In this document: positions 6,001 to 53,401 of the stretch, in pieces
Layout of the letters: the number at the start of each line of letters is the position of its first letter
Position numbering within the stretch: the first letter of the stretch is position 1
NCBI GenBank assembly: GCA_943357285.1
Contig: CALRGJ010000009.1
Coordinates: forward strand, 1 to 53,577
Direction: 5' to 3'
DNA length: 53,577 nt
Source of the DNA: Candidatus Peribacteria bacterium
GTDB lineage: Bacteria > Patescibacteriota > Gracilibacteria > UBA1369 > LOWO2-01-FULL-3
Position numbers and translations under genes: made by a program
The notes under the pieces: model-generated
What the model was told of the DNA's origin: nothing
What the model saw: the letters and a program-made list of their open reading frames with translations, nothing else
Databases searched by the model: none

Positions 6001-9000
6001 CCACTGATTTAATAAATTTCTCAGCAAATAAAGCTGTTACAAAGAATGGTGTGGCAACAGTACAAATTACAGGAAAGAATATTTCCGGCAGTGCAAATAT
6101 TATTGCCGAAAGTTCTGGACTCACTAATGGAAAAATTCCGTTAAAAATAAATAAGCATGTCACGAGTGATATCGTGAAAAATTTCTCACCAAGGTCACTG
6201 TATGTTTCACTGCTTGGAGGAGCTTATGGACAAGTGGGAGATCAAAATAATTTGGCTAATTCTATCCTATTCTCAAAAGGGCAGGTAGAAACAATAAGCA
6301 CTGTCACCGCTACACAAAGCGAAAAGAAGCGCATGTTTGCAGTTGATGGTTATGGTAAAATTGATTTCCTTACTAGCACTGTTTATGGAAAAGTAATTGG
6401 TGCTACTAATTCCTTCCCATATCAAAAGGTTTCAATTTCTGATGACATAGCCGGTGATGATTTGGCTAATGTTTTCCTGGTACCGAAGACTGATTCTCCG
6501 GTATTACTGGTTGATGAAAAAACTAATATGCCGGACAAGGACGGTGTTTTTGTGAAGACTTTGGATGAAGCAAATAAGAGCATGTTCAGTCAGGACGCTG
6601 ATGGAGTTTACGTGAAGGTGGGAAGTGATACAAAAATGAAAGTAGATAAATATGGAAGAATTTTTATCAATGATGAGGTTTATAAACTTCGTATTCCTAC
6701 AAAAGATGATCAGCTAGATGTTAGCACTTTCGCTTTCATCCTTGCAAAAGGTGGTTCCGATATAGCGATGATTTCATTCAATCAGAATTTTGGCAAAGGT
6801 GTTAATACTATTAGTTTTGGAGAAAATATTCAAAATTTGACTCCGGGTATTTACGTAGAATCAATTACTACAAAAAATAAATATTCATTTACCTCAGCAT
6901 ATAGCGGCAATTCTACTGCAGAACCTCAGGGAATTTATTTTATTGATAATGAAGAAGAGATAGATACTAATCAAGCTCCAGGCTTCGGATATAGTAGTTT
7001 GGATGGGGCTAAAAAAGAATTTGGCTTGGGCTTTCAAGGTTCAAATAAGCATATGCTTTTATTTGCAGCTGGAAATTCCGTGGGAGCTTCTTTTGTGCCT
7101 TATGCATCTGATTCTGGAATTATTTATGGTGATCCAACCATTAAGTTGAAGGTGGATGGAAATTTGGTAAGCAAAGATACCGGATACAGCAAAGATATTG
7201 GCAAATCTATTTTCAGCGGGCAAGAGCCTATTCAACAAATGATTGAGTTTGATGCTAATGGGGATGACTATGAAGATTTATTATTGGTGTATGAGAGTGG
7301 ACTTATTAGATTGATGGAGAATGAGATCAGCAATAAAAGATTCCGTGATAGAGGTTATATTTTGAATATATATGGAGGCATAGAAAGTATTGCGAAAATT
7401 GATGTGGATAATGATGGCTATGATGACTTGGCCGTAGGTACGAAGCAGCCATGTAATGCCGGCGAGCAATGTGTAAGTTTGATTAAGAATACTAATGGTA
7501 ACTTTGATAGAAAACCTTTGAATTTAGCTCTTCAAGATAGAAAAGTTTATGAGATGAAGGGGTCAGATATGAATAATGATGGTTGCCAGGATTTGGTAAC
7601 CAGCGATTCATCCGGTAGCATTAGCATTTTCTACAATAAATCTGATGGAAAAAGCTGCAATGGTTTAGAAACAAATTATGGATATAGTAAGAATTTTGGT
7701 TTTACACTCAAGAGTGGTTTGAATGAAGTGGCTAATCTTTTCCTCAATTATCCGGGCATGGAAACTCCTGACGATGGAAAGGATAAAGCTAATGCAGATG
7801 GAAGTGAGGCAGGTAAATCCAACTGGTATAAATTCATTCAATTTAGTCTACCAACAACTCAGCCGCCGGCAGTAAATCCTAAGGAAAAAGATCCGGCCTT
7901 TAGTAGTGCTCAGTACGCTAAGGACGGAATTGACTTACAAAATACAATTTTGGGAAGTGGTCAAATAACGACAAAAGATGTACCTCAACAAACTTTCAAT
8001 AAAAACTATGATTTCATTCATATTTCTGAAGATGGAAGATTTAAAGGTAAATCTGTTAAAGAAGCAAAAGATTTAAATGGTGGTTCCGTAGCAAATGGAG
8101 ACGTGATTGAATATTTAATTGCCCTTCAAAATGATAGTGATCAAGCGGTAAATAATCTGATGCTTTCTGATGCCACACCTACTTCAATGACACTTATTCA
8201 GAGTAGTTTGAAGTGTTTGGATGCCGGTTGCAGCGATAAATTGGAGTGGCTGGATACAGGCACAAGCTTAAGGTCCGCAATCATTAAAAACATCAGTATT
8301 CCGGCTAAGGGAAAGAGAATAATTAGTTATCAGATGACAGTGGATTTAACTCCTAAGGTTCACTTTGATATTGGAAATAATTTTGTGAAATATCCATCCA
8401 ATGCCAATGATCCATATCAGGATATAATGGTTAGACCTGAGGTAAATCCAGATGGAATTATTACTTACCTATATTCAACCGGCGCAAAAACTTATGAAAA
8501 ATTTGATGTTAATCCCGCTAATAATTCAAAAAATGCTTTAGATGATGCTTTTGAAAAAATCGGTTTACCAAGTCCAACTGAGTTATTGAAGAATGCCAAT
8601 GGAGAATTATCTCCCGAAGTAAAAGCATCATTACAAAAATTTTCCGGTTCTCAATATTCGGATAAAGATTATAACGGCTGTGCTGATTCATGGAATTCTG
8701 TTCTCACAAATGCACAAGATACAGGTGAAGCAGTGGCCAATGGAATTGGAAATATTCTTGGAGCGATGAGATGTTCCGGGGCTGGTTGTCTGCCTATTCC
8801 ATATAATATTGCTCTGCTGACTCCTAACGCTATGGGCCCAGGAACACCTGGATTCCCAGCATTTCTTGCCGGTACTCCTAATCCACCATTCTTCGGATTC
8901 TTTTTACCAAGCTATACAATTTCAAGTTTGAGACTTTATCTCTCTCCTACTTTAACGATGGGACTTGGCACTGCTATTTGTTCCGGTCCTAATTCAGCCG

Positions 9001-12000
9001 CCGGAATGTGTTTTGCCTTTGCTGCACCAGGTGGTATTCCAGGAGCATGTAGTGCCATTAAGGCTAGCGTAGATCAGGCAATATCTTCTGCAAAGAGCGC
9101 AGTTGTGGATACAGCTACCGGTCAATCAGCTGTCATTACGGATGGCGAAGGAACTGGAGGTACTAAGGGAGTAAATATGGGTGGAAGTTTTGGTAGTCCT
9201 GACAGTCCACTTTCCGGTAATGCAAAAGTTAATATAAAAATACCTGGATTCCCAAGTGTTGTTACAAATTGGTTGGATGGAGAAATTGATGAAATTTACA
9301 GTAAACTTTTGCGCTTCCCTACCTTCTATTTCATTTTGCCAGACTTCTCAAAAGTGGCTCAAGAAAGCAAATTAGCAGGTAAGGAATTTAGTTTTTCGAG
9401 CTTCCATGACTTTGCTACAAGCCTTAGTAATTTCCCATTCGTGAAGCTTGAAGGAAAAGAAATTCTAATCAAGGTTCCAGCCATTTCTCCAAAAGAAATA
9501 GCTAAATATAAGATCCAAGCAGATGCGTGGTTGAAGCATATGGAGAACGAATTACAAAAGTATAATGCGTGGAATTGTTCTGCAAATGAGAATAGAAAGA
9601 CCATTTGTGACAACATAATGGTGAACATGCAGAATTTGATGGCCTCAGTGAAGAGGACAATGGATATGCTGGATAAGATTGCGAATCTTCCAAAAGATAT
9701 TTTGCAGTTTAAAAATATGCAGTCTAAATATGCGACCCAGATAATTTGTTATCTCGATGCAATAACAAATTACACTGGTGGATATATCAAGAGACAGCAA
9801 AAGATTATAGAGTCATGGATTAAAACTATCCAAGATGTAATTCGCACATTTAAGGAGTGGAAAGTCTTGCTCGATGTGGTAGCGGACTATCAACAATCAT
9901 GTGACAAATGTAAGAGTGATAGATTCGGCAAGTTGGGATTATTGATGCAGCTTTTTGTGGCAATACCGGATATTCCAATTATTCCTCTACCAAAATGGCC
10001 AGATGTAGTTGTAGATTTTTCTCAAATTAAAACTGGCATTAAAATTGTTTGGCCAGATGTAGTTTTCCGACCTGAGCCAATTACTTTGCCAAATCTACCT
10101 GACATCACTTTGCCGGAAGTTCTTCCAGATGTGAATATTGATTTATCGGGCTTAAATTTCAATGTAAATTTACCTGATCTATCCAAGTTTTCTTTGCCAA
10201 CTTTGCCGGATCTACCTCAAATTCCTATTCCTCAATTACCAGACCTACCTAGACCTCCAAAAATTCCTGGTCTACCAAAAATAGTTGGTAAATTGATGGC
10301 AAATTTAAAAGTTGTTTTCAAAATTCTTTGCTTATTAAAAAATGGATTTATTCCAATTCCGGAAACAACTTTGAATACAGAACTTGAAACTCTTACTCAG
10401 CCTAGCGTGGATGCCATTCTGCCTTTGATCAAGAACCTCGGAATGCAATATCCACCTATTCAATATAGTTATGTTGACCAGATCAGAATCACTGGAAAAT
10501 TGAGTTTTGATGTCGATACTAATCTTATATATGTCGTAGCGGATAAAGGTGCTCAAATATGGAATGAGGGAATTACAAGCTTTGTGAAAAGCATTAATAG
10601 AATTACAAATATACCTTTTGGACAAGCATTAAATACTTTGATTCAGGAGGCAATAAATAAAGCGGCTGCAGAAGCACAGAAATCAATAAATGAAGGAACA
10701 AACACGGTAAATGACGCTGCTGATAATGCGTTGCCACTCAGTTTTGATACTTCCGAAATGATGAGTTTCAAGAAAGAAATGGATGACTATGTTGCAAGTG
10801 TGAAAGCTGAAGCTACAACACCAGACGTATATCACTTAGTAGCAACTCAACATTTCATTGATTCCACAGACCCAATATTGAATAGAAGTTTGGCTGATGT
10901 AAAAGCCGGAATAAAATTTGAAGATCTGCCTGATGGCGGAAATCTAAAACAATTAGCTGAAATTAGAAATCAGATGATTGCTTCAGTGGATTCATTGAAT
11001 TCTTCTACCAACATATTAAGTGAAATTGAAGACTTTAATGAATTCAATAAAATCCTTGTTGATAATAATGATCAACGTATTGATCTTATTGCCGCTAATC
11101 CTACGGTAAGTGACCTTGGCCTAAGCAATATTAGCGACACGGTATCAGGCAAAACATTAGCCTTCAGTTTCCTAGGAAAGGATATTGAAAATACTATTAA
11201 TCAAGCAGCCAATAGTGCCAACTTACCTGACAAGAGAAACTTAATCGCTTCTGCAATTGATTTCACACCACAAAGTGCAGTAGAAAGCGCAAATACGCCA
11301 GCTACTACCCCTGCAGGATTCTCTGTATCAGCCGGTGGAACAAACGAGAGCGTACTGAATTATGCTACAGAACTAAAAGGCCGTACCAATATTGTTTTTA
11401 GTGATGTAGACCATGATAAAGATACGGACATTATTTATTCAATGGGTGGAGATGTTTATATGAAAACCAACTACAAAAATACTCCAAATTTGGCGAAGGG
11501 AGATTTGATTGTTGGCTTCACCAAAAATACTGTTGGGGATTATGTAAATGCAGGTGGAGGTGGTGTACAAGGAGTGCAAGTTCCATATATTGGAACAGGT
11601 AAAATTGATATTTCTTGGTTGGCAACCGAAGATGCAATTTCATATGAAGTAGTTTTAAGAAAATCTATTTATGATGAATTTAAAGATGCAGCATATTCAT
11701 TTAAAATAAATGTCACTGATTTAAGTGATAAATCAGCTCCTAGAATTTCCGAAAAGATTCCAAATGGAAATTATTACGTGAGTGTCTTTGCTGTAAATTC
11801 TCTAGGTAATAAATCATTAGAATCCGAGGTAATAATTGCCGCTCCCCAATCTTGTGCAGATAATGATGCGCCAATGCCTGTAATCAATACTACAAATTAT
11901 ACTTTGCCTATATTTAAGAATTTGCAGATTGATGCCAGCGCGTCGTTTGATCCTGATGGAGAAGTGGAACAATATTATTTGGAAACTGTTCCATTTGAAA

Positions 12001-14237
12001 CAGATAAAACTGATCCAATAACAAAGGATAAATTAAAAACTACACCAATAAAAAAAATAATTTGGAGTGATTTGACCGCAATGGTGGATGAAGATGGGAA
12101 TGGATTTACTTTTGATGACAGAATTAATCCTAATTTCAATATTGGTCCTTTCCTAAATGAAGGAGATATTGGTGATCACAAATTCTTGCTTCATGTCGTG
12201 GATGCCTCTGGCAAGGATGCGAGCTTACAATTTGTTGTACATGTAGTGGCTCCAAATGTTAGCCTGGATCAATCATTTGCTACAACATCAGTAGCTACCG
12301 GAACAACACTTCCAATGACTGCTCAATTCCCATTCTGGTTAATGCGTAATCGTTATATTGAAAGAGTTATTAAAGGTAAACTCACTTTGGTTCCAAGAAT
12401 TGATAAAGTGAGAGAATCAACTACCAGGGATGATGGCTCATACAATATTTCAGATTTCGATTTGGAAGATATGATTTTGGTGGAAAATGCTGAAGGAAAA
12501 ATTGTAGCTGAAATAAATCCAAAGACTGGAAATGTTGGCAAAATAGAGACCGGATATAAGACAATTACCAATGAGGCTCTCCCTCCAAATATACCAACCA
12601 GCGTAAGCGTTGTGGACAAAAACAATCAGATTTTGGGTACGATCTATTTGGTTTCAAATGCAAATTCGGACGTACAGACATATCAAAATTATGGATTCAA
12701 TACTGCAAATATTGAGTTCATACATGGCACAAACGTAGACGATTTAGACGAAGCTGATAATTTCATTTTTGAAAATTTACCTGGTAATGATCCTGATAAT
12801 CCAGGTGGAGTAGTTCTCAAAAATACTGTGGAAAATAAGATTATGGCTTCAATTGATAGTACTGGAAATATCGTAGTGATTGATCAACGTATTACTCTCA
12901 CTCAAAAGCCAAATGATCATGTAGATGACCCTCTAATTATTCAGATTAATTTTGAAGGAAAAGCTGTAGGAGAAGTTTATATTGCTCTTACAAATTCCGC
13001 TCTTGTGATAGGACCTGATGATGTTCCCTTTATGAGTCCTAGAAAACCTTCCGAAGGAGTACTACAAGGATCGCAGATTAGCTCCGGCAAGTTTAATATT
13101 GCCAACTTGATTTTTGATCCAGGATTTAAATTCACACAACAAGACCTAGTAAAAAGAAAGGACTTCGTAAAAGTACTGCTAAAAATGATTTGTATTATTC
13201 CTAGGCCGGAAGCTTATGAGCCGTTTAAATCTGGTGCAGGCTATGCCGATAACAATATACTTGCTGACTACCATCCAGACATTAAAGAGGCTACTTTGCT
13301 TGGATTTGTAGATGGATATAAAGGAGAAAGTAATGAACAAGGACTGTTCCCATTCAAACCAGAAAATAATATTACACGAGCTGAGGCAGTAAAAATTATT
13401 CTAAAAGCTCTACAATATCGTAATATCGTAGATGTCAGTGGCTTGAAAGAAGGCGATCCATGGTTTGGCGATTATATGAAAGCTGCACAAGACTTAACTC
13501 CATATTTAAAAGGGTTAAAACCACTTCAAAATAATTTTATTATTACAGCTGAAGAAGCGAAGGATCCGAATAAACTAATGACTTTTGGTGAATTGATTAT
13601 GATGGTACAGAGAGTTCTTGAAACTTATAATTGTTTTGAAGAAGATAGTGATAGTAATGGATTGACTGATTACTGCGAAGCAAAATATGATATTAGCGAT
13701 CCAAAAGCTGACCAAGACAAAGATGGTCTTAATAATGCATTGGAATGCGCTGATAACCTAAGTCCACTGGATCCAGATACTGATGGTGGTGGAGTGACTG
13801 ACGGCAAAGAAATAGCTGCTCATACAAATCCACTAGATCCAACTGACGATGCTTTAGATGATGACAATGATGGATTGTCTAACTATGATGAAGTTAATAT
13901 TTATCATACAGATCCGAATAATCCGGATACAGACGGTGGTGGAAAAACAGATGGCAAAGAAGTAGAAAACTGTGGAGACCCATTAGATAAGATCGATGAT
14001 AAAGAAACCTTAGCATGCAAAAATCAAAGCGTTCCAGGACTTTATATTGTACCTGCAGAATGTAATACTTGTCCTTGCATCTCTACATTCCTACATAAGG
14101 CTGAACTAATACCAGGAGATATTTTCTTCTCAGTTGTTGGCACATATTATTCACAGTATTATGACACCAAACCAAACGATAAAACCTATATTTTTACGAA
14201 AGGTAACGAGGTTCAAATACAATCAATAAACAAATAA
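3..14237 (+). CDS. Giant multidomain surface protein, 5'-truncated by the window
   Basis: About 4,744 codons are visible; the frame is open to the left edge and no signal peptide is seen, so the true start lies outside. Visible order: an N-terminal region (residues 60-800) with a weak peptidase C25/caspase-like look (LVGNIPLPVV near 70, NSCYTG with Cys792) and a PDZ-like segment near 523-546 (GLQKGDVIVKVNG); a Ca-binding Asp-rich stretch near 906; an N/G/T-rich linker 1370-1500; four invasin/Big-1-like Ig domains about 1600-2050; FG-GAP-like repeats 2416-2553; a DUF11-like domain about 2690-2790; an LPDLP-rich segment 3320-3430; FN3-like and PKD domains 3860-4086; SLH-like sequence about 4383-4546; thrombospondin-type-3 repeats 4546-4667. 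It is probably exported and bound to the cell surface as adhesin, stalk or protease. Protease activity is a guess; the surface role is well supported. The stop is 1 nt before the next ATG, so it heads a five-gene operon. Confidence 0.85.
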   Translation: MLRYAEDVRKNNDLRYAEDVRKSNDLTDVKIVFYDKNKDSVQDLSSALENLYLNGDGANKNRLAGVVLVGNIPLPVVNKEGNRYISMFPYTDFSDQAYKYNPETKSFERNASVAFPKPEIWHGVIRSPSDDFAGREQLAEYFDKNHLYYEGVEMFSKFDRRMFFGDLVHEEEQLNPDSFKQYLKYITSFEDLAYMRYNKFWAQELSSQSMEVLKDIPAEIKPKTENKALQDFLKDTNPLENVPDIYAKSIIDQNLIPYYQVLSKYIGSTNDFSYNTARYEKSTNGSPNIDSVVGLIGIKDEYTKYYLKSVNEALEKKINEVAAKIQEPLNIVDYSKLTGKIGNQDFVIQASDNGVPINVNGLFYNFNYKNEQDGKWYINGTDTAILESPKQCVPLLGSTKSSYFDKNLSFNPKAVGGEYSILTRSLRSDNGATGTDLHTAGVYTRMLSPSSAGAKDSELFTATGGAYAGQANSDGTYNTGAIIEDNPAYGISAFINNPLAGKGTNYRSPIERDVKNIPSQNLNQIDDQGLQKGDVIVKVNGQDLNYAYSFDQAIENSYQSVKYVLDTINDNNVTPSQQFKNFPYPIKFRPGDNPDVKRNATAVVGYFSVDFYRNGKAGKKYFSFTVRNASTTDKGLTSDYPPQGDTRAYVLLDTPTNINFNDASIYSDDSRSQGAIFTLYRNKNDGYNNGSYDASAGCNANSTSKNSDRCLGMVATIPVLDPAGSLAPILMTIPGLGDRLKFPEKVKRNNLGQNSAEEDDYTKHVDSYQFPGGLQTDYHKYDDVDQVYFNSCYTGLPSVAATSVDSNPYRFVLDASTIETDPNAIHNVAPDFYGQLMKQFETFINSGTAKQIDYSTNNGTAESSTYDPKTSIWAGRDKVDASEIILNSEPKLTLKDFSDYYGLFDGMDNDGNGLTDYKWIDSDNDGVFDLKYYDFKEADLEYGIPSWDIQEIARKLLSHDASYTIPYGVPSFPNKKFDKDVTLTVKADSVKKLPSLILHNEPTDYTISQQMKSQTAFSLPIDNPRYVAFQTAPKKGPDYPADQNQPSKPNLDVQAIINSLGDTNPPVYPGQIQKIKYVNLFDSDISNMAQLQSAIITKATELASLPGSYRIIDTNAAPDKYTQKDIIDAILNNYLSPVVNNNDSDSPASGFNLEKASSKKIYDALGWLKMSIDEKHQYILQYYLSGGDNGYAADRTLLPSPAGSQAAFGYEAAYLVLDGDKSSFDMNFNKAVPEEKDNVFDPIYQITNPGSGANGGQGQGEESDSSDQGAQKDGEDFEFVWVQDFLKEMKKFIDSLKTEPQFTNECFSPESWNPGYKDKLPVGPAKTGDVSAPAIDTNVPDPNANQVQINSYVYHEIAGYDDLLQKIEAQKNAPVTSSENGSVGVVNAENNGTGSGTTGENGATNVNNTVGNTSTQGTGLQQILDNISKDAGIVKKNSTINNSGSDGAGTSNTSVSNVGNGGLKNAGNSLNGTVTTTENNGVTGNTGDAGGGANATSDTTQNEKDLQILKSTLIEDKAPISRGPQTKPVETPQKTAEIQKVETPVEIQKEPEIKPEPNQKWEEYFIGGKYYQKFLPKRPQTNVRRLLAEVLTDNPFVNASTDDFSKYIVESNDSMVADNSSLMKIEAVIFDSKGNAEINGSHKVKFSISSDLVSFKGNNIVDSKNGIATVYIKAGKITGDFYIKAEVLKDNGKVDTNYQVVTKNLNLVAGEPASVDIKSDSGVLVANNQSKMILNVVLKDKFGNVANNSFEKIGIFVNDKVKIDQKNDSDNKLIGTQLDTLDGGASVELFAGIKSGSADVVAVVMDQELQDKLLEAGNNIGSIDFKKYVGATKSFQILDKVDLALEIFDENFKAISELPADGKSIVRLGVKLLNNGQIVKAFNGPVKFTVLKTNLGNFVSNPPSHLVNGELNPANISFKAGKVTGDEEILISIPGFASDSFKFKVKANKATQIMLSGSEDIVDTNSAKQVILTAKVLDENGNIVEGDNGTVINFYASKATTDLINFSANKAVTKNGVATVQITGKNISGSANIIAESSGLTNGKIPLKINKHVTSDIVKNFSPRSLYVSLLGGAYGQVGDQNNLANSILFSKGQVETISTVTATQSEKKRMFAVDGYGKIDFLTSTVYGKVIGATNSFPYQKVSISDDIAGDDLANVFLVPKTDSPVLLVDEKTNMPDKDGVFVKTLDEANKSMFSQDADGVYVKVGSDTKMKVDKYGRIFINDEVYKLRIPTKDDQLDVSTFAFILAKGGSDIAMISFNQNFGKGVNTISFGENIQNLTPGIYVESITTKNKYSFTSAYSGNSTAEPQGIYFIDNEEEIDTNQAPGFGYSSLDGAKKEFGLGFQGSNKHMLLFAAGNSVGASFVPYASDSGIIYGDPTIKLKVDGNLVSKDTGYSKDIGKSIFSGQEPIQQMIEFDANGDDYEDLLLVYESGLIRLMENEISNKRFRDRGYILNIYGGIESIAKIDVDNDGYDDLAVGTKQPCNAGEQCVSLIKNTNGNFDRKPLNLALQDRKVYEMKGSDMNNDGCQDLVTSDSSGSISIFYNKSDGKSCNGLETNYGYSKNFGFTLKSGLNEVANLFLNYPGMETPDDGKDKANADGSEAGKSNWYKFIQFSLPTTQPPAVNPKEKDPAFSSAQYAKDGIDLQNTILGSGQITTKDVPQQTFNKNYDFIHISEDGRFKGKSVKEAKDLNGGSVANGDVIEYLIALQNDSDQAVNNLMLSDATPTSMTLIQSSLKCLDAGCSDKLEWLDTGTSLRSAIIKNISIPAKGKRIISYQMTVDLTPKVHFDIGNNFVKYPSNANDPYQDIMVRPEVNPDGIITYLYSTGAKTYEKFDVNPANNSKNALDDAFEKIGLPSPTELLKNANGELSPEVKASLQKFSGSQYSDKDYNGCADSWNSVLTNAQDTGEAVANGIGNILGAMRCSGAGCLPIPYNIALLTPNAMGPGTPGFPAFLAGTPNPPFFGFFLPSYTISSLRLYLSPTLTMGLGTAICSGPNSAAGMCFAFAAPGGIPGACSAIKASVDQAISSAKSAVVDTATGQSAVITDGEGTGGTKGVNMGGSFGSPDSPLSGNAKVNIKIPGFPSVVTNWLDGEIDEIYSKLLRFPTFYFILPDFSKVAQESKLAGKEFSFSSFHDFATSLSNFPFVKLEGKEILIKVPAISPKEIAKYKIQADAWLKHMENELQKYNAWNCSANENRKTICDNIMVNMQNLMASVKRTMDMLDKIANLPKDILQFKNMQSKYATQIICYLDAITNYTGGYIKRQQKIIESWIKTIQDVIRTFKEWKVLLDVVADYQQSCDKCKSDRFGKLGLLMQLFVAIPDIPIIPLPKWPDVVVDFSQIKTGIKIVWPDVVFRPEPITLPNLPDITLPEVLPDVNIDLSGLNFNVNLPDLSKFSLPTLPDLPQIPIPQLPDLPRPPKIPGLPKIVGKLMANLKVVFKILCLLKNGFIPIPETTLNTELETLTQPSVDAILPLIKNLGMQYPPIQYSYVDQIRITGKLSFDVDTNLIYVVADKGAQIWNEGITSFVKSINRITNIPFGQALNTLIQEAINKAAAEAQKSINEGTNTVNDAADNALPLSFDTSEMMSFKKEMDDYVASVKAEATTPDVYHLVATQHFIDSTDPILNRSLADVKAGIKFEDLPDGGNLKQLAEIRNQMIASVDSLNSSTNILSEIEDFNEFNKILVDNNDQRIDLIAANPTVSDLGLSNISDTVSGKTLAFSFLGKDIENTINQAANSANLPDKRNLIASAIDFTPQSAVESANTPATTPAGFSVSAGGTNESVLNYATELKGRTNIVFSDVDHDKDTDIIYSMGGDVYMKTNYKNTPNLAKGDLIVGFTKNTVGDYVNAGGGGVQGVQVPYIGTGKIDISWLATEDAISYEVVLRKSIYDEFKDAAYSFKINVTDLSDKSAPRISEKIPNGNYYVSVFAVNSLGNKSLESEVIIAAPQSCADNDAPMPVINTTNYTLPIFKNLQIDASASFDPDGEVEQYYLETVPFETDKTDPITKDKLKTTPIKKIIWSDLTAMVDEDGNGFTFDDRINPNFNIGPFLNEGDIGDHKFLLHVVDASGKDASLQFVVHVVAPNVSLDQSFATTSVATGTTLPMTAQFPFWLMRNRYIERVIKGKLTLVPRIDKVRESTTRDDGSYNISDFDLEDMILVENAEGKIVAEINPKTGNVGKIETGYKTITNEALPPNIPTSVSVVDKNNQILGTIYLVSNANSDVQTYQNYGFNTANIEFIHGTNVDDLDEADNFIFENLPGNDPDNPGGVVLKNTVENKIMASIDSTGNIVVIDQRITLTQKPNDHVDDPLIIQINFEGKAVGEVYIALTNSALVIGPDDVPFMSPRKPSEGVLQGSQISSGKFNIANLIFDPGFKFTQQDLVKRKDFVKVLLKMICIIPRPEAYEPFKSGAGYADNNILADYHPDIKEATLLGFVDGYKGESNEQGLFPFKPENNITRAEAVKIILKALQYRNIVDVSGLKEGDPWFGDYMKAAQDLTPYLKGLKPLQNNFIITAEEAKDPNKLMTFGELIMMVQRVLETYNCFEEDSDSNGLTDYCEAKYDISDPKADQDKDGLNNALECADNLSPLDPDTDGGGVTDGKEIAAHTNPLDPTDDALDDDNDGLSNYDEVNIYHTDPNNPDTDGGGKTDGKEVENCGDPLDKIDDKETLACKNQSVPGLYIVPAECNTCPCISTFLHKAELIPGDIFFSVVGTYYSQYYDTKPNDKTYIFTKGNEVQIQSINK
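6..77 (+). repeat. 36-bp tandem duplication at window edge
   Basis: Positions 6-41 and 42-77 are the same 36-bp unit with one mismatch. It encodes two copies of the 12-residue unit LRYAEDVRK(N/S)ND in the giant gene. The mismatch argues against a pure assembly echo, but the position at the extreme left edge makes an artefact possible. Confidence 0.8.
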
Positions 14238-43740: not shown

Positions 43741-43768
43741 TTGACTTTTAATCCGTTACAATTAGAAT
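43741..43768 (+). promoter_or_regulatory. Promoter of purH
   Basis: TTGACT (43741-43746), 16-bp spacer, TAGAAT (43763-43768). Transcription would start near 43775, which supports the ATG at 43807 rather than the in-frame TTG at 43741. Confidence 0.55.
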
Positions 43769-43806
43769 TCACCAGGGCCGATTCTATCTCAATAATCTCA
43801 AATAAT

Positions 43807-45318
43807 ATGCCGATTCAGCGAGCTTTGATCAGTGTGTCTGACAAAACCGGAATAGTTGATTTAGCAAGGAAGTTAGCTGAAAAAGATGTAGAAATTTTAT
43901 CTACCGGCGGTACCGCTAAGTCTCTCAAGGAGGCTGGAATAAAAGTGGTAGATGTTTCTGAATATACTGGTTTTCCAGAAATGATGGATGGCAGAGTAAA
44001 AACCTTGCATCCTAAAATTCATGGAGGAATTTTGGCGGTTCGCGACAATGCTGAGCATAGAAAACAGGCAGAGGCTGCCGGAATCAAGATGATTGATATG
44101 GTTATTATTAATTTCTATCCATTCCTCCAGAGTCCAAGCATAGAAAATATTGATATTGGTGGGCCAAGCATGGTGAGAAGTGCAGCAAAGAATTTTCAGC
44201 ATGTAACTATCGTTACGAGCCCGGCTGATTATGATGAGGTGATGAATGAAATTGAAAAGGATGGAGAGACTTCTCTTGAAACACGCAGAAAATTAGCGAG
44301 AAAGGCTTTTACAGCTACTAGTAATTATGACTCTGCTATTGAACAATTCTTCAGAGAAATGACTGGAGAACCAGAGCTACTTAAATTGCATTATGAAAAA
44401 GTATCCAGCTTGAGATATGGAGAAAATCCTCATCAGAAAGCCGCTTTCTTCCGTAATCCGGAAAATACAGATGCAAACATTACAAATTCAAAAGTTCTTC
44501 ATGGAAAACAATTATCTTTCAATAATTTAGTTGATGGAGATAGTGCACTAGAGCTTGTGAAGGAATTCAGAGAGCCTACAGCGGTTTTCGTGAAGCATAA
44601 TAACCCATGCGGAGTGGCAAGTGGTGCGACAATCGAGGAAGCCTTCAAAAAGGCTTACGACGTGGATCCAATGTCTGCGTTCGGTTGTATTATTGCTGTG
44701 AATGGAGAAGTGAATGAGGCCGTGGTGGATTACATGAAGGAAAAGAAGATGTTCGTGGAAATGATTATTGCTACAAGTTATGAAGAAAAAGCTTTGAAGA
44801 GATTGATGACTCGTGAAAATTTGAGAATTTTGGAAACGGGAGAGTTGAAATTGGATTTATTGAAAACGGACATTAAAAAAGTGGCTGGAGGACTTCTTAT
44901 TCAGACAAAAGATACTTACGAATTAACACGTGCGGATCTGAAAGTGGTAAGCAAAAAACAGCCAACAGAAGAGGAATTAGACTCTATGCTCTTTGCTACA
45001 AAAGTAGTGAAACATGTGATGTCCAATGCTGTAATTATGGCTAAGAACAACGTGGTAACAGGTATTGGCGCAGGACAGATGTCACGCGTAGATAGTGTGT
45101 TTATCGCGAGCAATAAGGGTGGTGAAAACATCAAAGGATCAGTAATGTCGTCTGATGCATTCTTCCCTTTCCCAGACGCAGTAGAAATGGCTGTGAAGGC
45201 TGGTGTGACTGGAATTATTCATCCAGGTGGATCTGTGAACGATGACAAAGTAATAGAAGTCGCTGATAAACTTGGTATCACGATGGTGGTGACAGGAAGA
45301 AGATATTTTAGACATTAA
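43807..45318 (+). CDS. purH: Bifunctional AICAR formyltransferase/IMP cyclohydrolase
   Basis: 503 codons from ATG 43807 (MPIQRALISVSDKTG). PurH carries out the last two steps of purine synthesis: folate-dependent formylation of AICAR and ring closure to IMP. The N-terminal cyclohydrolase (MGS-like) domain has LISVSDKTGIVDLA, ILSTGGTAKSL and DGRVKTLHPKIHGG. The C-terminal transformylase has LRYGENPHQKAAFFR, VKHNNPCGVASG (catalytic Lys-His region), DPMSAFGCIIA and FFPFPDAVEMA, ending GRRYFRH. Both halves look complete, which matters because PurP-type enzymes for the same formylation step are encoded about 5 kb away. Confidence 0.96.
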   Translation: MPIQRALISVSDKTGIVDLARKLAEKDVEILSTGGTAKSLKEAGIKVVDVSEYTGFPEMMDGRVKTLHPKIHGGILAVRDNAEHRKQAEAAGIKMIDMVIINFYPFLQSPSIENIDIGGPSMVRSAAKNFQHVTIVTSPADYDEVMNEIEKDGETSLETRRKLARKAFTATSNYDSAIEQFFREMTGEPELLKLHYEKVSSLRYGENPHQKAAFFRNPENTDANITNSKVLHGKQLSFNNLVDGDSALELVKEFREPTAVFVKHNNPCGVASGATIEEAFKKAYDVDPMSAFGCIIAVNGEVNEAVVDYMKEKKMFVEMIIATSYEEKALKRLMTRENLRILETGELKLDLLKTDIKKVAGGLLIQTKDTYELTRADLKVVSKKQPTEEELDSMLFATKVVKHVMSNAVIMAKNNVVTGIGAGQMSRVDSVFIASNKGGENIKGSVMSSDAFFPFPDAVEMAVKAGVTGIIHPGGSVNDDKVIEVADKLGITMVVTGRRYFRH

Positions 45319-49448: not shown

Positions 49449-50261
49449 ATGAACTTTCTAGATGCTGCCATTCTTGGTGCTTTACAAGGAATTACCGAAT
49501 TTTTGCCTATTTCCTCTAGTGGACATCTTATTTTGGCAGAGAAATTTCTCAATTTGGAGGTAGAAAGTCTAAAAACTTTTGATGTAATGCTTAATCTTGG
49601 AACTCTTTTGGCGGTATTTATTTACTTCTGGAAAGATGTGAAAGGCATGATTATTGCGCTATGGAAATTTATTATGAGAAAATTGCCTGCAAATGATCCA
49701 TCTGCAAAACTCATTGTTTATCTAATTCTTGGCACAATTCCTGCAGTAATTTTTGGACTTTTTGGTGATACGATAGATTCTTATTTTAGAAATGCTAAAT
49801 CTGTGACTATTTTGATGATTGTCGTGGCCTGTGTATTTATTATTGCGGAATTATTCTACAAAAAAGTTAAAGTAAAAAAACAGGAAGTCAGCACGTGGAA
49901 ACAAGCTTTGATTATAGGATTTGCTCAATCTCTCGCGCTAATTCCAGGTATTTCCAGATCTGGATCAACAATAGTTGCAGGACTTTTTCAAGGAATTGAG
50001 CGTGAGAATGTTGCTAAATTTTCATTTCTATTAAGCATTCCTGCTGTCTGTGGAGCTCTAACTTTGACTGGAATTAAAATTCTAAAAAGTGGAAGTGTTG
50101 ACGTAGAAATTGCCCAATTATTCATAGGGTTTTTGACTTCTTTTATTTTCGGAATTTTGAGTGTGGCATTCTTAATGAAATTCTTGAAAAAGCATTCATT
50201 AAACGTTTTTGCGGGGTATAGAATTATTTTCGCCATATTACTTTTTACATATTTCCTCTAG
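49449..50261 (+). CDS. uppP: Undecaprenyl-diphosphate phosphatase (UppP/BacA)
   Basis: 270 codons, polytopic membrane protein with about eight hydrophobic segments. It recycles undecaprenyl diphosphate to the monophosphate carrier for peptidoglycan and other wall polymers. The family motifs are present: GALQGITEFLPISSSGHLIL (residues 11-30, catalytic Glu and Ser-rich loop), LGTLLAVFIYFWKD, and IPGISRSGSTIVAGLF with the second conserved loop. Length is typical. It starts a plus-strand run leading into purP, 53 nt downstream. Confidence 0.97.
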   Translation: MNFLDAAILGALQGITEFLPISSSGHLILAEKFLNLEVESLKTFDVMLNLGTLLAVFIYFWKDVKGMIIALWKFIMRKLPANDPSAKLIVYLILGTIPAVIFGLFGDTIDSYFRNAKSVTILMIVVACVFIIAELFYKKVKVKKQEVSTWKQALIIGFAQSLALIPGISRSGSTIVAGLFQGIERENVAKFSFLLSIPAVCGALTLTGIKILKSGSVDVEIAQLFIGFLTSFIFGILSVAFLMKFLKKHSLNVFAGYRIIFAILLFTYFL

Positions 50262-50314: not shown

Positions 50315-51340
50315 ATGGGAAATATTAAAGATTACAAGATAGCAACTCTAGGAAGCCACACTGCTTTGCAAATTTTAAAGGGTGCGAAGGATGAGGGTTT
50401 TCAAACTATTTGTATTTGCGAAAAAGGTCGTGATAGACCATATAAAAGCTACGGTGTAGCTGATGAAATTATATACGTGGATTCGTTTAAAGATTTTTTC
50501 AAAATTGAAGAAGAGTTGATTAAGAAAAACGCAATTGTTATTCCTCATGGTTCTTTTGTGGCTTATATAGGCGCAGATAAAGTTCCTACTATTAAAGCTA
50601 TGCACTATGGCGCTAAAGGAATTTTGGAATGGGAATCTGATAGAAATAAGGAAAGACAATGGCTTGATCACGCTAAAATAAAGATGCCTGCTTTATTAAA
50701 GAGCCCTGAAGAAATTGATAGACCAGTTATTATTAAATTCCATGGAGCTTCTGGTGGAAAAGGTTATTTCTTAGCAAATAGTCCAGCTGAATTCTACGAG
50801 CGTTTTAAGGTTTATGAAGGTAAAGCTGATCATAATGATTATGTAATTCAAGAATATATCGTAGGAGTTCCTGTTTATACTCATTATTTTTACAGCAAAT
50901 TTACAGGTGAGCTTGAGATTATGGGATTTGATAAACGTTATGAATCAAATGCAGATTCCATTGGTCGTATTGCCGCAAAAGATCAGGTAGATGCGGATAT
51001 TCGTACTACTTATACAATCACAGGAAATGTACCTTTGGTTATTAGAGAATCAATTTTGCCAGAGATTTTTGAAATGGGAGATCGTGTAATAGAATCTTCA
51101 AAGAAATTCACAGAAGGAGGACTTTTCGGACCTTTCTGTTTGGAAGGAATTATTGATCCGGAATTAAATTATTATATATTCGAAATTTCCGCGAGAATCG
51201 TGGCCGGCACAAATCCTTACGTCCATGGATCTCCGTATACTTGGCTTAGATATGATGAACCAATGAGTACTGGCCGCAGATTAGCGCGAGATATTAAGCA
51301 AGCAATTGAGGCTGATCAATTGGCAAAAGTTCTAGGATAA
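50315..51340 (+). CDS. purP: PurP-type formate-dependent AICAR ligase
   Basis: 341 codons, normal PurP length. PurP, best known from archaea, is an ATP-grasp enzyme that formylates AICAR to FAICAR with formate and ATP instead of formyl-folate. Visible signatures: ATLGSHTALQILKGAKDEGF at the N-terminus, ICEKGRDRPY, IPHGSFVAYIG, the ATP-grasp glycine loop IKFHGASGGKGYF, GFDKRYESNADSIGRI, and the metal-binding acidic strands GPFCLEG and FEISARIVAGTNPY, ending MSTGRRLARDIKQA. All expected motifs are intact, so it is probably active. It starts 53 nt after uppP. A full purH nearby makes this unusual. Confidence 0.92.
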   Translation: MGNIKDYKIATLGSHTALQILKGAKDEGFQTICICEKGRDRPYKSYGVADEIIYVDSFKDFFKIEEELIKKNAIVIPHGSFVAYIGADKVPTIKAMHYGAKGILEWESDRNKERQWLDHAKIKMPALLKSPEEIDRPVIIKFHGASGGKGYFLANSPAEFYERFKVYEGKADHNDYVIQEYIVGVPVYTHYFYSKFTGELEIMGFDKRYESNADSIGRIAAKDQVDADIRTTYTITGNVPLVIRESILPEIFEMGDRVIESSKKFTEGGLFGPFCLEGIIDPELNYYIFEISARIVAGTNPYVHGSPYTWLRYDEPMSTGRRLARDIKQAIEADQLAKVLG

Positions 51341-51366
51341 ATCAGAATCCTCTAGGTGGAGATTTG

Positions 51367-51396
51367 TTGATTTTGTTTTTGCTGTGGTGATATAAT
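51367..51396 (+). promoter_or_regulatory. Promoter of a candidate small RNA
   Basis: TTGATT (51367-51372), 18-bp spacer, extended -10 TGA-TATAAT (hexamer 51391-51396). Transcription would begin near 51403. Confidence 0.55.
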
Positions 51397-51402
51397 CTGG
51401 AT

Positions 51403-51494
51403 GTTCTCAAATCTGCCTTGCAGATGAGAGACTGGTGGACTGGACGGATACCCGTCTCAACAAAAATCCCCCTGTTACAAGCAGGAGGTTTTTT
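51403..51494 (+). ncRNA. Candidate small RNA (about 92 nt) with intrinsic terminator
   Basis: It follows a good promoter. Hairpin 1 (51406-51428) pairs ATCTGC with GCAGAT and CTC with GAG around a CTT loop. Hairpin 2 (51443-51456) is GACGG-ATAC-CCGTC. The terminator hairpin (51468-51488) is followed by TTTTTT. The segment between hairpins 1 and 2 includes CTGGTGGACTGGA (51432-51444), most of it unpaired. That is exactly complementary to the 3' end of the neighbouring tRNA-like gene, CCA included. No open frame of note. The existence of the RNA is inferred from signals only. Confidence 0.4.
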
Positions 51495-51520
51495 GTTTTG
51501 CCCTAAGCTGGTGGACTGGA
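51432..51520 (+). repeat. 13-bp direct repeat matching a tRNA 3' end
   Basis: CTGGTGGACTGGA occurs at 51432-51444 and 51508-51520, 76 bp apart. The second copy is the reverse complement of the tRNA-like gene's acceptor and CCA end. Confidence 0.85.
51462..51494. terminator. Bidirectional terminator shared by small RNA and tRNA-like gene
   Basis: A-tract 51462-51466, stem CCCCCTG/CAGGAGG with one mismatch and loop TTACAAG, then TTTTTT (51489-51494). On the minus strand the stem is followed by ATTTTT. Confidence 0.7.
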
Positions 51521-51579
51521 GGGGAATTGAACCCCTATCAACGGGTGCTAACCCCATCGCAGATACCAATCTCCAGCCC
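51509..51579 (-). tRNA. tRNA-like gene with truncated D-arm (anticodon uncertain, UAG by position)
   Basis: 71 nt including encoded CCA. Acceptor stem GGGCTGG/CCAGTCC pairs over 7 bp (one G-U), discriminator A. The T-arm AGGGG-TTCAATT-CCCCT is canonical. The anticodon stem ATGGG/CCCGT has a loop GTTAGCA, giving UAG after U33, but position 37 would be C, which is unusual. The D-arm is very short (AGAT-TGGT-ATCT) and the usual two linker bases before it are missing; the variable region is 4 nt. A possible -10 (TATAAC, 51599-51604) lies upstream and a terminator downstream. Could be a functional divergent tRNA, a tRNA-like RNA or a decayed copy. Confidence 0.5.
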
Positions 51580-51695
51580 AAGATCTTAAGGCGTATCTGT
51601 TATAGCAACCAAACATTAAATTTTCTTAAATTTTTTCTAAATTAATTTACGATCAACTTGCGTGAAAGTAAAAAATATTTTATTTACCTTCAGTT

Positions 51696-51706
51696 TGTTA
51701 TACAAT
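51696..51706 (+). promoter_or_regulatory. Extended -10 upstream of the second purP-like gene
   Basis: TGT-TATACAAT at 51696-51706, 22 nt before the ATG at 51729; no clear -35. It resembles the TGTTATAAT elements elsewhere in the window. Confidence 0.35.
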
Positions 51707-51728
51707 GCATCCATAAATAATTTCTCAC

Positions 51729-52865
51729 ATGAACCTAAAAGACGTTATCAAAAAGTATGATAAGAAAAAAATTACTATAGGTGTGCTTGGTGGACACAGC
51801 GCTTTAGATGTGTGTCATGGAGCCGCAAAATACGGTTTTAAAACTGTGGTAGTTTGTCAGAAAGGACGTGAAAAAACTTATGCAAAATATTATAAAAAAC
51901 GTGCTGATGGAATGGGTGGAGAAAAAGGATGTGTAGATAATATTATTCTTGTAGATAAATTTTCTGACATTGTGAAGGCAGATGTGCAGAAAAAATTGAG
52001 AGATTTAAATACAGTATTTATTCATAACAGATATTTCTGGGTTTATTGTGATTTCGCGAAGATTGAAAAAGATTTCAAAGTACCAATTTTTGGCTTAAGA
52101 GAGGGCGTAAAACTAGAAGAAAGAGATCATCCAAATAATCAGTACGTGCTGCTAAAAAAGGCTGGAATTAGAATTCCGAAGATGTTTAAAACTGCGAAAG
52201 AAATTGATCGCTTAGTCATAGTAAAAGTGAATGAGGCTGAAAGACGTTATGAAAGAGCTTTTTTCTTTGCTAATTGCGAAGAGGCTTATAAATGTGAAAG
52301 TGAGGAAAGAATTAAGTCCGGAATGATTCTGGAGAAGGATTTAAAGAAGGCTGTGATTGAAGAATATATCATTGGTGCTCATATTAATTTAAATTACTTC
52401 TATTCTACTTTGACTGATGAAGTGGAGTTGATGGGAACAGATACAAGAAGGCAGACAAATCTTGACGGATTCTTGAGGCTAACAGCAAAAGACCAAATGG
52501 ATTTAATTGAATCTGCAGGATTCAGCCCAAAGATGATTGAGACTGGTCATTATGCTGTGACGATGAAGGAATCTTTGGTGGAGAAAGCTTTGGCTCTTGG
52601 TGAAAAATTTGTAAAAACTATGAAGAAAGAAGTGGCTCCTGGAATGATTGGACCATTTGCTTTGCAAGGTGCTGTGGTGGCTGAAGATGGAAAAGAAGAA
52701 TTTGTGATCTTTGACGTGAGCATGAGAATTCCTGGTTCACCTGGTACAAAATTCACACCATATTCCGGATACTTATATGGAGAATCTATGAGTTATGGTG
52801 AAAGAATTGCCATGGAAATTCAGATGGCGATAGAAAAAGATAAATTACAGGATATTTTAACTTAA
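51729..52865 (+). CDS. Divergent PurP paralogue (ATP-grasp)
   Basis: 378 codons. It aligns by eye with the preceding PurP along its length: GVLGGHSALDVCHGAAKYGF, VVCQKGREKTY, EEYIIGAHINLNYFYS, MGTDTRRQTNLDGFLRLTAK, GPFALQG and a C-terminal MSYGERIAMEIQMAI. Key positions differ: the glycine loop of the ATP-grasp becomes VKVNEAERRYERAFFF, the CLE acid becomes ALQ, and EISARI becomes DVSMRI followed by PGSPGTKF. Many archaea also carry two PurP types, so this may have a different or subunit role. An extra stretch near residues 55-65 (RADGMGGEKGC) is inserted. Its stop overlaps the next start (TAATG), coupling it to a lipid enzyme. Confidence 0.8.
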   Translation: MNLKDVIKKYDKKKITIGVLGGHSALDVCHGAAKYGFKTVVVCQKGREKTYAKYYKKRADGMGGEKGCVDNIILVDKFSDIVKADVQKKLRDLNTVFIHNRYFWVYCDFAKIEKDFKVPIFGLREGVKLEERDHPNNQYVLLKKAGIRIPKMFKTAKEIDRLVIVKVNEAERRYERAFFFANCEEAYKCESEERIKSGMILEKDLKKAVIEEYIIGAHINLNYFYSTLTDEVELMGTDTRRQTNLDGFLRLTAKDQMDLIESAGFSPKMIETGHYAVTMKESLVEKALALGEKFVKTMKKEVAPGMIGPFALQGAVVAEDGKEEFVIFDVSMRIPGSPGTKFTPYSGYLYGESMSYGERIAMEIQMAIEKDKLQDILT

Positions 52866-53401
52866 TGGTTAAATTTCTAAGTAAGCTTGGAGTAAAATTA
52901 AAAGAGTTTAAGGACTCTATGGTTTTGCCTTTTGCGAAGTTTTTTAATTGGCTGCATTTCAAGCCGATTTATCTCACAATTATTTCTTTAATTGCTGGGT
53001 TTGTAGCGGTGTATTTTTTGGCACTGGGAGATGCTGAAATATTTTTATATTGGATATTGGTTAAAATTATTTTCGATGGTTTTGATGGGTCTTTGGCAAG
53101 ATACCAGAAGAAAGACTCAAAGCTTGGATTTTGGCTAGATTACGGATCAGATCGACTAATTACTTCTGCCATCTTAGTTACGATTTGGATTAAAAGTGGA
53201 ATGGAAGTTATTTATTTAATTCAGATCATTCTTTTTGCTTTGGTTCATTTTATATACTTGAGGAACAAACAAAAATCGATGATTATTTATGGTGATGGGT
53301 TTTACTATATTATTGTTGGATTCAGTTTGTTTTACGGCACCGTCTTCCACATATCTCTAAATTCAATCAATCTAGTTTTGTTATTAGCTTCACTTATTTG
53401 A
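52865..53401 (+). CDS. CDP-alcohol phosphatidyltransferase family protein
   Basis: 178 codons, small polytopic membrane protein with about five helices. The catalytic signature D-G-x2-A-R-x8-G-x3-D-x3-D is complete (DGSLARYQKKDSKLGFWLDY then GSD). Such enzymes transfer a phosphoalcohol from a CDP-alcohol to lipid or alcohol acceptors, building phospholipid head groups or related polymers. The substrate cannot be told from sequence. It overlaps the upstream gene by 1 nt and is followed 39 nt later by a nucleotidyltransferase gene that could make its CDP-activated substrate. Confidence 0.88.
   Translation: MVKFLSKLGVKLKEFKDSMVLPFAKFFNWLHFKPIYLTIISLIAGFVAVYFLALGDAEIFLYWILVKIIFDGFDGSLARYQKKDSKLGFWLDYGSDRLITSAILVTIWIKSGMEVIYLIQIILFALVHFIYLRNKQKSMIIYGDGFYYIIVGFSLFYGTVFHISLNSINLVLLLASLI

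Follow-up and report, generated by a model that had tools for sequence, protein, structure and literature searches.

An archaeal-type tandem PurP pair accompanies PurH in Patescibacteria and may form a second AICAR formyltransferase

Why should a bacterium with a complete bifunctional PurH also carry two PurP-like genes of archaeal type, side by side? The question is raised by contig CALRGJ010000009.1 of a Candidatus Peribacteria bacterium, a stretch of 53,577 nucleotides (hereafter the window) that makes up the full contig G000:C9; the genome, 1.21 Mb in size, has a completeness of 99.35% and a contamination of 0.04%. Two open reading frames (ORFs) on the + strand, ORF A (50315–51340, 341 aa; PurP cluster Ib type, formate–AICAR ligase family) and ORF B (51729–52865, 378 aa; PurP-like, cluster II type), lie 388 bp apart. 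The purH gene (43741–45318, + strand), encoding the bifunctional 5-aminoimidazole-4-carboxamide ribonucleotide (AICAR) formyltransferase/inosine monophosphate (IMP) cyclohydrolase, is located 5.0 kb upstream of them, close to the 5 kb given in an initial annotation of the window. Both PurH domains are complete, with the motifs RYGENPHQ and KHNNPCG intact, and the family matches described below bear out the view of this locus as a tandem archaeal-type PurP pair in a bacterium with complete PurH. A and B behave as a two-gene unit that belongs to de novo purine synthesis, and we tentatively propose that their products form a two-subunit, folate-independent, formate- and ATP-dependent AICAR formyltransferase working beside PurH.

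Family membership of the two proteins is clear. ORF A contains DUF1246 (PF06849, 153 bits) and DUF1297 (PF06973, 230 bits), both above the family cut-off, and these two are the only Pfam domains found in A and B, with E-values from 1e-38 to 1e-68. Sequence matches in the PDB were to PurP structures only, the best being 2r84 for A (5e-117) and 2r7k for B (4e-73). AlphaFold single-chain models were compared with known structures: the A model (mean predicted local distance difference test score, pLDDT, 86) is closest to Methanocaldococcus jannaschii PurP, with a Z-score of 38.4 over 322 residues, and the B model (mean pLDDT 88) to 2r7k, with a Z-score of 38.0 over 339 residues and a root-mean-square deviation of 3.2, while the next ATP-grasp families score only about 19–20 against either model. 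A better match to an ATP-grasp family outside PurP, which the initial annotation had considered, was thus found for neither protein. Both fall below the curated NCBIfam equivalog cut-offs for formate–AICAR ligase (444 bits against 580 for A, 312 against 556 for B); public family models already recognise A and B, so the genes are not new to annotation.

Archaeal PurP-like proteins were divided by Brown et al. in 2011 into clusters Ia, which includes the active M. jannaschii enzyme MJ0136, Ib and II (PMC3261824). Type Ia proteins mostly occur alone and are active alone, whereas each species that had a Ib protein also had one, and only one, type II protein, and PF1517 (Ib) and PF0421 (II) of Pyrococcus furiosus were inactive when assayed (PMC3261824). 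In MJ0136, H27 and R314 contact the formyl group, Asn258 the carboxamide and Ser94 the 5'-phosphate; cluster II is marked by His in place of Asn258 and by a loop two residues longer that replaces the glycine loop, with Ser/Thr94 largely, though not strictly, conserved (PMC3261824). We applied the Asn258 and glycine-loop diagnostics to 171 sequences, and they were concordant, the A-type sequences combining Asn with the glycine loop and the B-type sequences His with the longer loop, apart from a single row with Pro. A quick tree of 112 rows, with PF1517 as its single Ib reference and MJ0136 as its single Ia reference, groups the A rows with PF1517 at a support of 98, apart from MJ0136, and places all B-type sequences on one side of a branch supported at 99. 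The comparison with archaeal PurP types that the initial annotation called for therefore assigns A to cluster Ib and B to cluster II, and its description of the second copy as a distinct paralogue is upheld by both diagnostics and the tree.

Residue conservation was compared over 99 A rows and 97 B rows in M. jannaschii numbering. ORF A keeps the key residues of MJ0136 (H27, S94, N258, S266, R314 and the GGxG loop): its N238 is the equivalent of Asn258, a position held by Asn in every one of the 99 A rows, its glycine loop GASGGKG, which has the GG(K/R)G form expected of cluster I, occupies residues 144–150, and its metal-site acids are E277 and E290. ORF B has the same fold and retains the formyl contacts H27 (B H23) and R314 (B R333) together with S266 (B S282), K156 and E200. 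The position of Asn258 is taken by H274, a His in 96 of the 97 B rows, and the loop NEAERRYERA (about residues 168–177) stands where the glycine loop would be. Set against its counterpart in A, this loop reads VNEAERRYERAFFF versus FHGASGGKGYFL, being two residues longer at 161–165, devoid of the glycines and provided with positive charges. The metal site of B holds Q313 and D329. Position 94 is Tyr in ORF B and in 95 of the 97 rows (Ser in L090 and L093), and every B row has Arg at position 93, adjoining the phosphate-binding Ser94 site.

These differences do not look like erosion. The same near-invariant residue is found in A and B at 33 positions, a further 20 positions are near-invariant but switched between the two, and 40 more are near-invariant in B only; the loop pattern EAxRxYERAFF is near-invariant across Patescibacteria, Woesearchaeota and Nanoarchaeota. 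The switched and B-only sites indicate that selection maintains B for a distinct task, and B is, on this pattern, a conserved type rather than a decaying copy. The changed residues that the initial annotation pointed out in B are real, but its CLE to ALQ change does not indicate loss of activity, because active MJ0136 itself has FCLQ, with Gln at site 297. Median distances among nine genomes (A 0.36, B 0.49, PurH 0.46, the neighbouring UppP 0.85) place both proteins well below UppP.

Gene content was assessed by family searches in two sets of genomes: 60 close kin, drawn from the genus, family and order of the window's organism and counting its own genome, and 287 Patescibacteria from across the phylum. 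The nearest relatives of the window are metagenome-assembled genomes (MAGs) of Candidatus Peregrinibacteria, a group within the Patescibacteria, with ORF B 93% identical in the nearest; in the close relative L034, A is identical over the compared columns and B is 93% identical. PurP was found in 53 of the 60 close kin, which rules out archaeal DNA contamination as the source of the pair, and exactly two matches were present in 51 of them; single matches are limited to G033, where the match is a fragment lying at the end of its contig, and to G044, which has B only. Across the phylum, clear PurP occurs in 30 of 287 genomes, 29 of which have two, the exception being a lone B in G266. This B (L132, 6960–8225) is a degenerate cluster II PurP that has lost H27 and in which parts of the loop are lost or altered; in the 99% complete G266 genome, PurL-type domains are present and A, PurH and PurO were not found.

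Gene order is regular too. Among 51 loci containing both genes, A and B share a strand in all 51 and A lies upstream in 50, and the junction spans at most 100 bp in 27, including 10 overlaps, some of which depend on the start codon chosen. A Saccharibacteria group clusters with the woesearchaeon L081 in both the A and the B parts of the tree, each at a support of 98, which suggests joint transfer of the two genes. A recurrent family of about 250 aa lies between or just before the pair in the DPANN loci L041, L042, L069, L077 and L088; in the Patescibacteria loci L037, L038, L061 and L078 this position is taken by an HD-domain-like protein some 180 aa long.

The pair also follows PurH and the purine genes. 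In counts uncorrected for relatedness, PurH is present in 38 of 38 PurP-bearing genomes of the order and in one of three without PurP (41 genomes at least 90% complete), and in the rest of the phylum it occurs in 16 of 17 genomes with the pair versus four of 23 without, one of these four being a fragment. Three genomes (G031, G056 and G057) are without PurP, PurH and PurL/PurM-type domains together and seem to have lost the purine pathway. Co-occurrence of PurP and PurH in related bacteria is thus widespread, which is one half of a condition that the initial annotation named as refuting its view; the other half, a known role, did not emerge. In G267 the genes run purD, purL, purQ, guaA, purA (other strand), PurP-Ib, PurP-II, purH, purB, purE, purC, prs, purM (other strand), with overlapping ends at the Ib–II, II–purH and purH–purB junctions, and G224 has the same layout. 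Many Peregrinibacteria loci have purH upstream of the pair and purN downstream, and in DPANN loci the pair lies near homologues of guaA, purF, purD and purA (purF called by sequence inspection, the others by similarity to identified proteins). Degenerate PurH compensated by PurP is ruled out for Peregrinibacteria by the intact PurH motifs. As side observations, PurH is in two pieces in G133 (L140, 6847–8581; one ORF weakly resembling IMP cyclohydrolase and one formyltransferase ORF without the start of its domain) and in G146 (L141, 6804–8380), both of which keep the PurP pair, and PurH is divergent in G251.

Does the pair fill a gap in folate-dependent formylation? The survey of purine and folate genes that the initial annotation asked for was carried out for folate on 30 good genomes of the Peregrinibacteria order. 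FolD was found in 27, with no match in G027, G043 and G056; Fmt in all 30; and a second, PurN-sized formyltransferase in 28, all but G031 and G056. Formate–tetrahydrofolate ligase (FTHFS) had no match in any of the 30 genomes. PurO (PF07826) had no match in the window's genome, and among 30 genomes searched for it only Methanocella G357 gave one. The window's genome has PurN, PurL, PurM, FolD and PurH, so that the folate route to the formylated intermediate FAICAR (5-formamidoimidazole-4-carboxamide ribonucleotide) is available and the pair fills no missing step there. This context agrees with the published picture of Peribacteria, in which nucleotide synthesis is near-complete, tetrahydrofolate enzymes are present and folate is probably acquired (PMC4736985). 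Of the roles suggested in the initial annotation, a folate-independent route, here run in parallel, appears the most likely.

How could such a parallel route operate? In the two-subunit formyltransferase that we tentatively favor, A would use its ATP-grasp site to phosphorylate formate and pass the formyl group to AICAR, yielding FAICAR, while B would act as a specialised partner that still binds nucleotide and formyl group and presents a conserved, different loop at the place where A binds ATP. The cyclohydrolase domain of PurH would then close FAICAR to IMP, and the cell would possess two formylation routes, one through PurH with 10-formyltetrahydrofolate and one through the PurP pair with formate and ATP. 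The reaction of A, its contact with B and the lack of a separate reaction for B are what we infer. A need for both subunits would explain why PF1517 (Ib) and PF0421 (II) were inactive when Ia proteins are active alone, and why the Ib and II types are so strictly paired. The absence of FTHFS from all 30 genomes surveyed makes PurP a plausible entry point for formate, and the decay of B in G266, which lacks A and PurH alike, is consistent with a partnership.

Several observations weigh against this proposal. G040, G102 and G274, of the same class, have PurH and no PurP, which indicates that a cell with PurH can do without the pair, and G044 (96% complete) has an intact B with no A found. The mirror-tree correlation between A and B is no higher than that between A and PurH, and pairing and gene order are no more than suggestive of a physical contact. 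The M. jannaschii enzyme needs no protein of another type beside it, and pair-bearing genomes without PurH or PurO would need another IMP cyclohydrolase.

This last point leads to the main rival, in which B is an IMP cyclohydrolase that closes the FAICAR made by A to IMP, the pair forming a complete folate-free substitute for PurH. Such a role was the subject of earlier speculation by Brown et al. (PMC3261824). It would account for eight B-bearing genomes with PurL/PurM-type domains and neither PurH nor PurO, in five of which an adjacent A was confirmed, but the argument is soft, as it depends on archaeal MAGs that may be incomplete, and in G266, likewise without PurH and PurO, B is decayed rather than retained. 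The active site can be read both ways: B keeps the formyl contacts H27 and R314, has His for the carboxamide-contacting Asn in a reaction where the carboxamide must attack the formyl carbon, and is without the ATP glycine loop, dispensable for such an enzyme, but it also keeps the ATP-grasp features K156, E200 and the acidic or amide residues of the metal site. A cyclohydrolase B would moreover be redundant wherever the PurH cyclohydrolase is intact, as in Peregrinibacteria, PurH-bearing DPANN archaea and Methanosarcinales, and Archaeoglobi carry B alongside an active separate PurH2 (PMC3261824, PMC6797443). We regard this role as possible but rather doubtful; if it were true, Crenarchaeota and some Thermococcales would have their missing cyclohydrolase in cluster II.

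An unlikely further reading makes A an ordinary single-gene PurP and B a separate ATP-dependent enzyme acting on a related substrate in or near purine synthesis. The invariant positions peculiar to B, including R93 beside the Ser94 site, the Tyr at 94 in the DPANN/Peregrinibacteria branch of B and the ATP-grasp fold preserved in the B model would suit an enzyme with its own substrate, but the near-strict one-to-one pairing with A and the fixed gene order would not, and no purine step was found missing across all pair-bearing genomes. PurK is missing in most of them, but it is common for a PurE to occur with no PurK. Among 30 genomes, only G044 (C1, 43100–43630) has a clear PurK-type ATP-grasp domain, and as this sole true-PurK genome is also the one with only B, replacement of PurK was set aside as a single case not used in the argument. 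Formylation of glycinamide ribonucleotide (GAR) by B is unlikely too, PurN being present in the pair-bearing genomes of the order.

A different use of the same reactions, to which we attach very little probability, is that the PurP pair and PurH together exchange formyl groups between formate and folate, with AICAR as the carrier: the pair would formylate AICAR, and the formyltransferase half of PurH, run in reverse, would hand the formyl group to tetrahydrofolate. It is hinted at by the lack of FTHFS in 30 of 30 genomes while Fmt and PurN, which need 10-formyltetrahydrofolate, are present, and by G027 and G043, which have no FolD match and still keep PurH, PurN and the pair. Were it true, the missing formate–tetrahydrofolate ligase would be replaced, and the reverse direction would yield ATP and formate. 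Finally, the pair is hardly conceivable as redundant baggage or contamination kept by chance, a reading to which the complete PurH and the few relatives having PurH without PurP might lend themselves but which is largely refuted by conservation, given that PurP persists in most of these small genomes, that A diverges less than PurH and B about equally, and that contamination is low and L034 has a closely similar pair.

Of the neighbouring genes, uppP (bacA; 49449–50261, + strand), encoding undecaprenyl-diphosphate phosphatase, is a conserved neighbour that many Peregrinibacteria have in the interval from purH to the pair. Downstream, a CDP (cytidine diphosphate)-alcohol phosphotransferase ORF (52865–53401, + strand) overlaps the stop codon of B by one base. 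The initial annotation had called B translationally coupled to this gene and taken that as a hint at a function outside purine synthesis; the TAATG stop/start overlap is real, but among the loci examined the gene has its place after B in the window, L034 and L035 alone. Since the coupling is local, and since the pair tracks PurH and the de novo purine genes and sits in purine operons in other Patescibacteria, a non-purine role through this neighbour is unlikely, and the phosphotransferase lies outside the proposed module as a local arrangement of close relatives.

Between A and B lies an element resembling tRNA or transfer-messenger RNA (tmRNA) with an encoded CCA (51512–51579, − strand), which scores 28.2 against the Rfam tRNA cut-off of 29 and was not called as tRNA or tmRNA by ARAGORN. 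The element (about 71 nt) recurs in L034 (5785–5853, − strand), scored as tRNA-Sec, and in L104 (1305–1375, + strand), scored as tmRNA without its middle; from the window to L034 the acceptor stem shows compensatory changes, and there seems to be no D arm. Just after A, at about 51380–51497 (+ strand), a TATAAT-like box is followed by roughly 100 nt of strong fold ending in a terminator-like hairpin and T run, which was not seen in the alignment with L036; this stretch may correspond to a small RNA or act as a terminator for A. At the other end of the window, the contig opens with a 4744-aa reading frame (3–14237, + strand) that probably encodes a giant surface protein.

The system resembles several known ones without coinciding with any. 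MJ0136 (2r7k), the proven formate-dependent AICAR formyltransferase of cluster Ia, shares its fold and key residues with A; B has this fold and keeps H27, S266 and R314, with S94, N258 and the glycine loop changed, and MJ0136 differs from the pair in being a single-type enzyme that needs no partner. PurH and the PurP pair concern the same two steps, from AICAR to FAICAR to IMP, in the same genomes and operons, but their folds are unrelated, and PurH uses 10-formyltetrahydrofolate where PurP uses formate and ATP. The coexistence of a folate route and a formate/ATP-dependent ATP-grasp route for one formylation has a parallel in PurN and PurT of Escherichia coli, which formylate GAR, although GAR formylation precedes the AICAR step and PurT is encoded by one gene. 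The closest likeness is to the Ib and II genes of Crenarchaeota, Thermococci, Thaumarchaeota, Archaeoglobi and Methanosarcinales, which also come as one gene per type, often adjacent and near purine genes (PMC3261824), with the same cluster II His258 and loop two residues longer. The bacterial pair differs in its fixed A-then-B order and in having PurH as a rule, and the Tyr94 of its B, shared with the B of DPANN, is a change that most cluster II proteins of archaea have not been described as having.

Much of this has been known in archaea since 2011: the pair itself, the residues that mark it, its association with purine genes and, in Methanosarcinales, its coexistence with full-length PurH (PMC3261824). 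PurP was described as exclusively archaeal in a 2014 comparative study (PMC4177761), and no discussion of PurP in Patescibacteria was found in the literature searched, which covered few subscription journals. What is new is a bacterial clade that regularly carries the Ib and II unit, the position of this unit next to or within purine operons containing purH, near-strict pairing over 30 genomes of one phylum and a branch of B with Tyr94. What cluster II does, and which cyclohydrolase completes purine synthesis in Crenarchaeota, are questions dating from at least 2011. A pair that stands beside an intact PurH is unlikely to exist only for a missing step, which points to a two-subunit formyltransferase or to a further role of cluster II. 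The paired bacterial genes offer a new setting for working out the function of the second copy, and assays may prove simpler with the proteins of mesophilic bacteria and DPANN than with those of hyperthermophiles.

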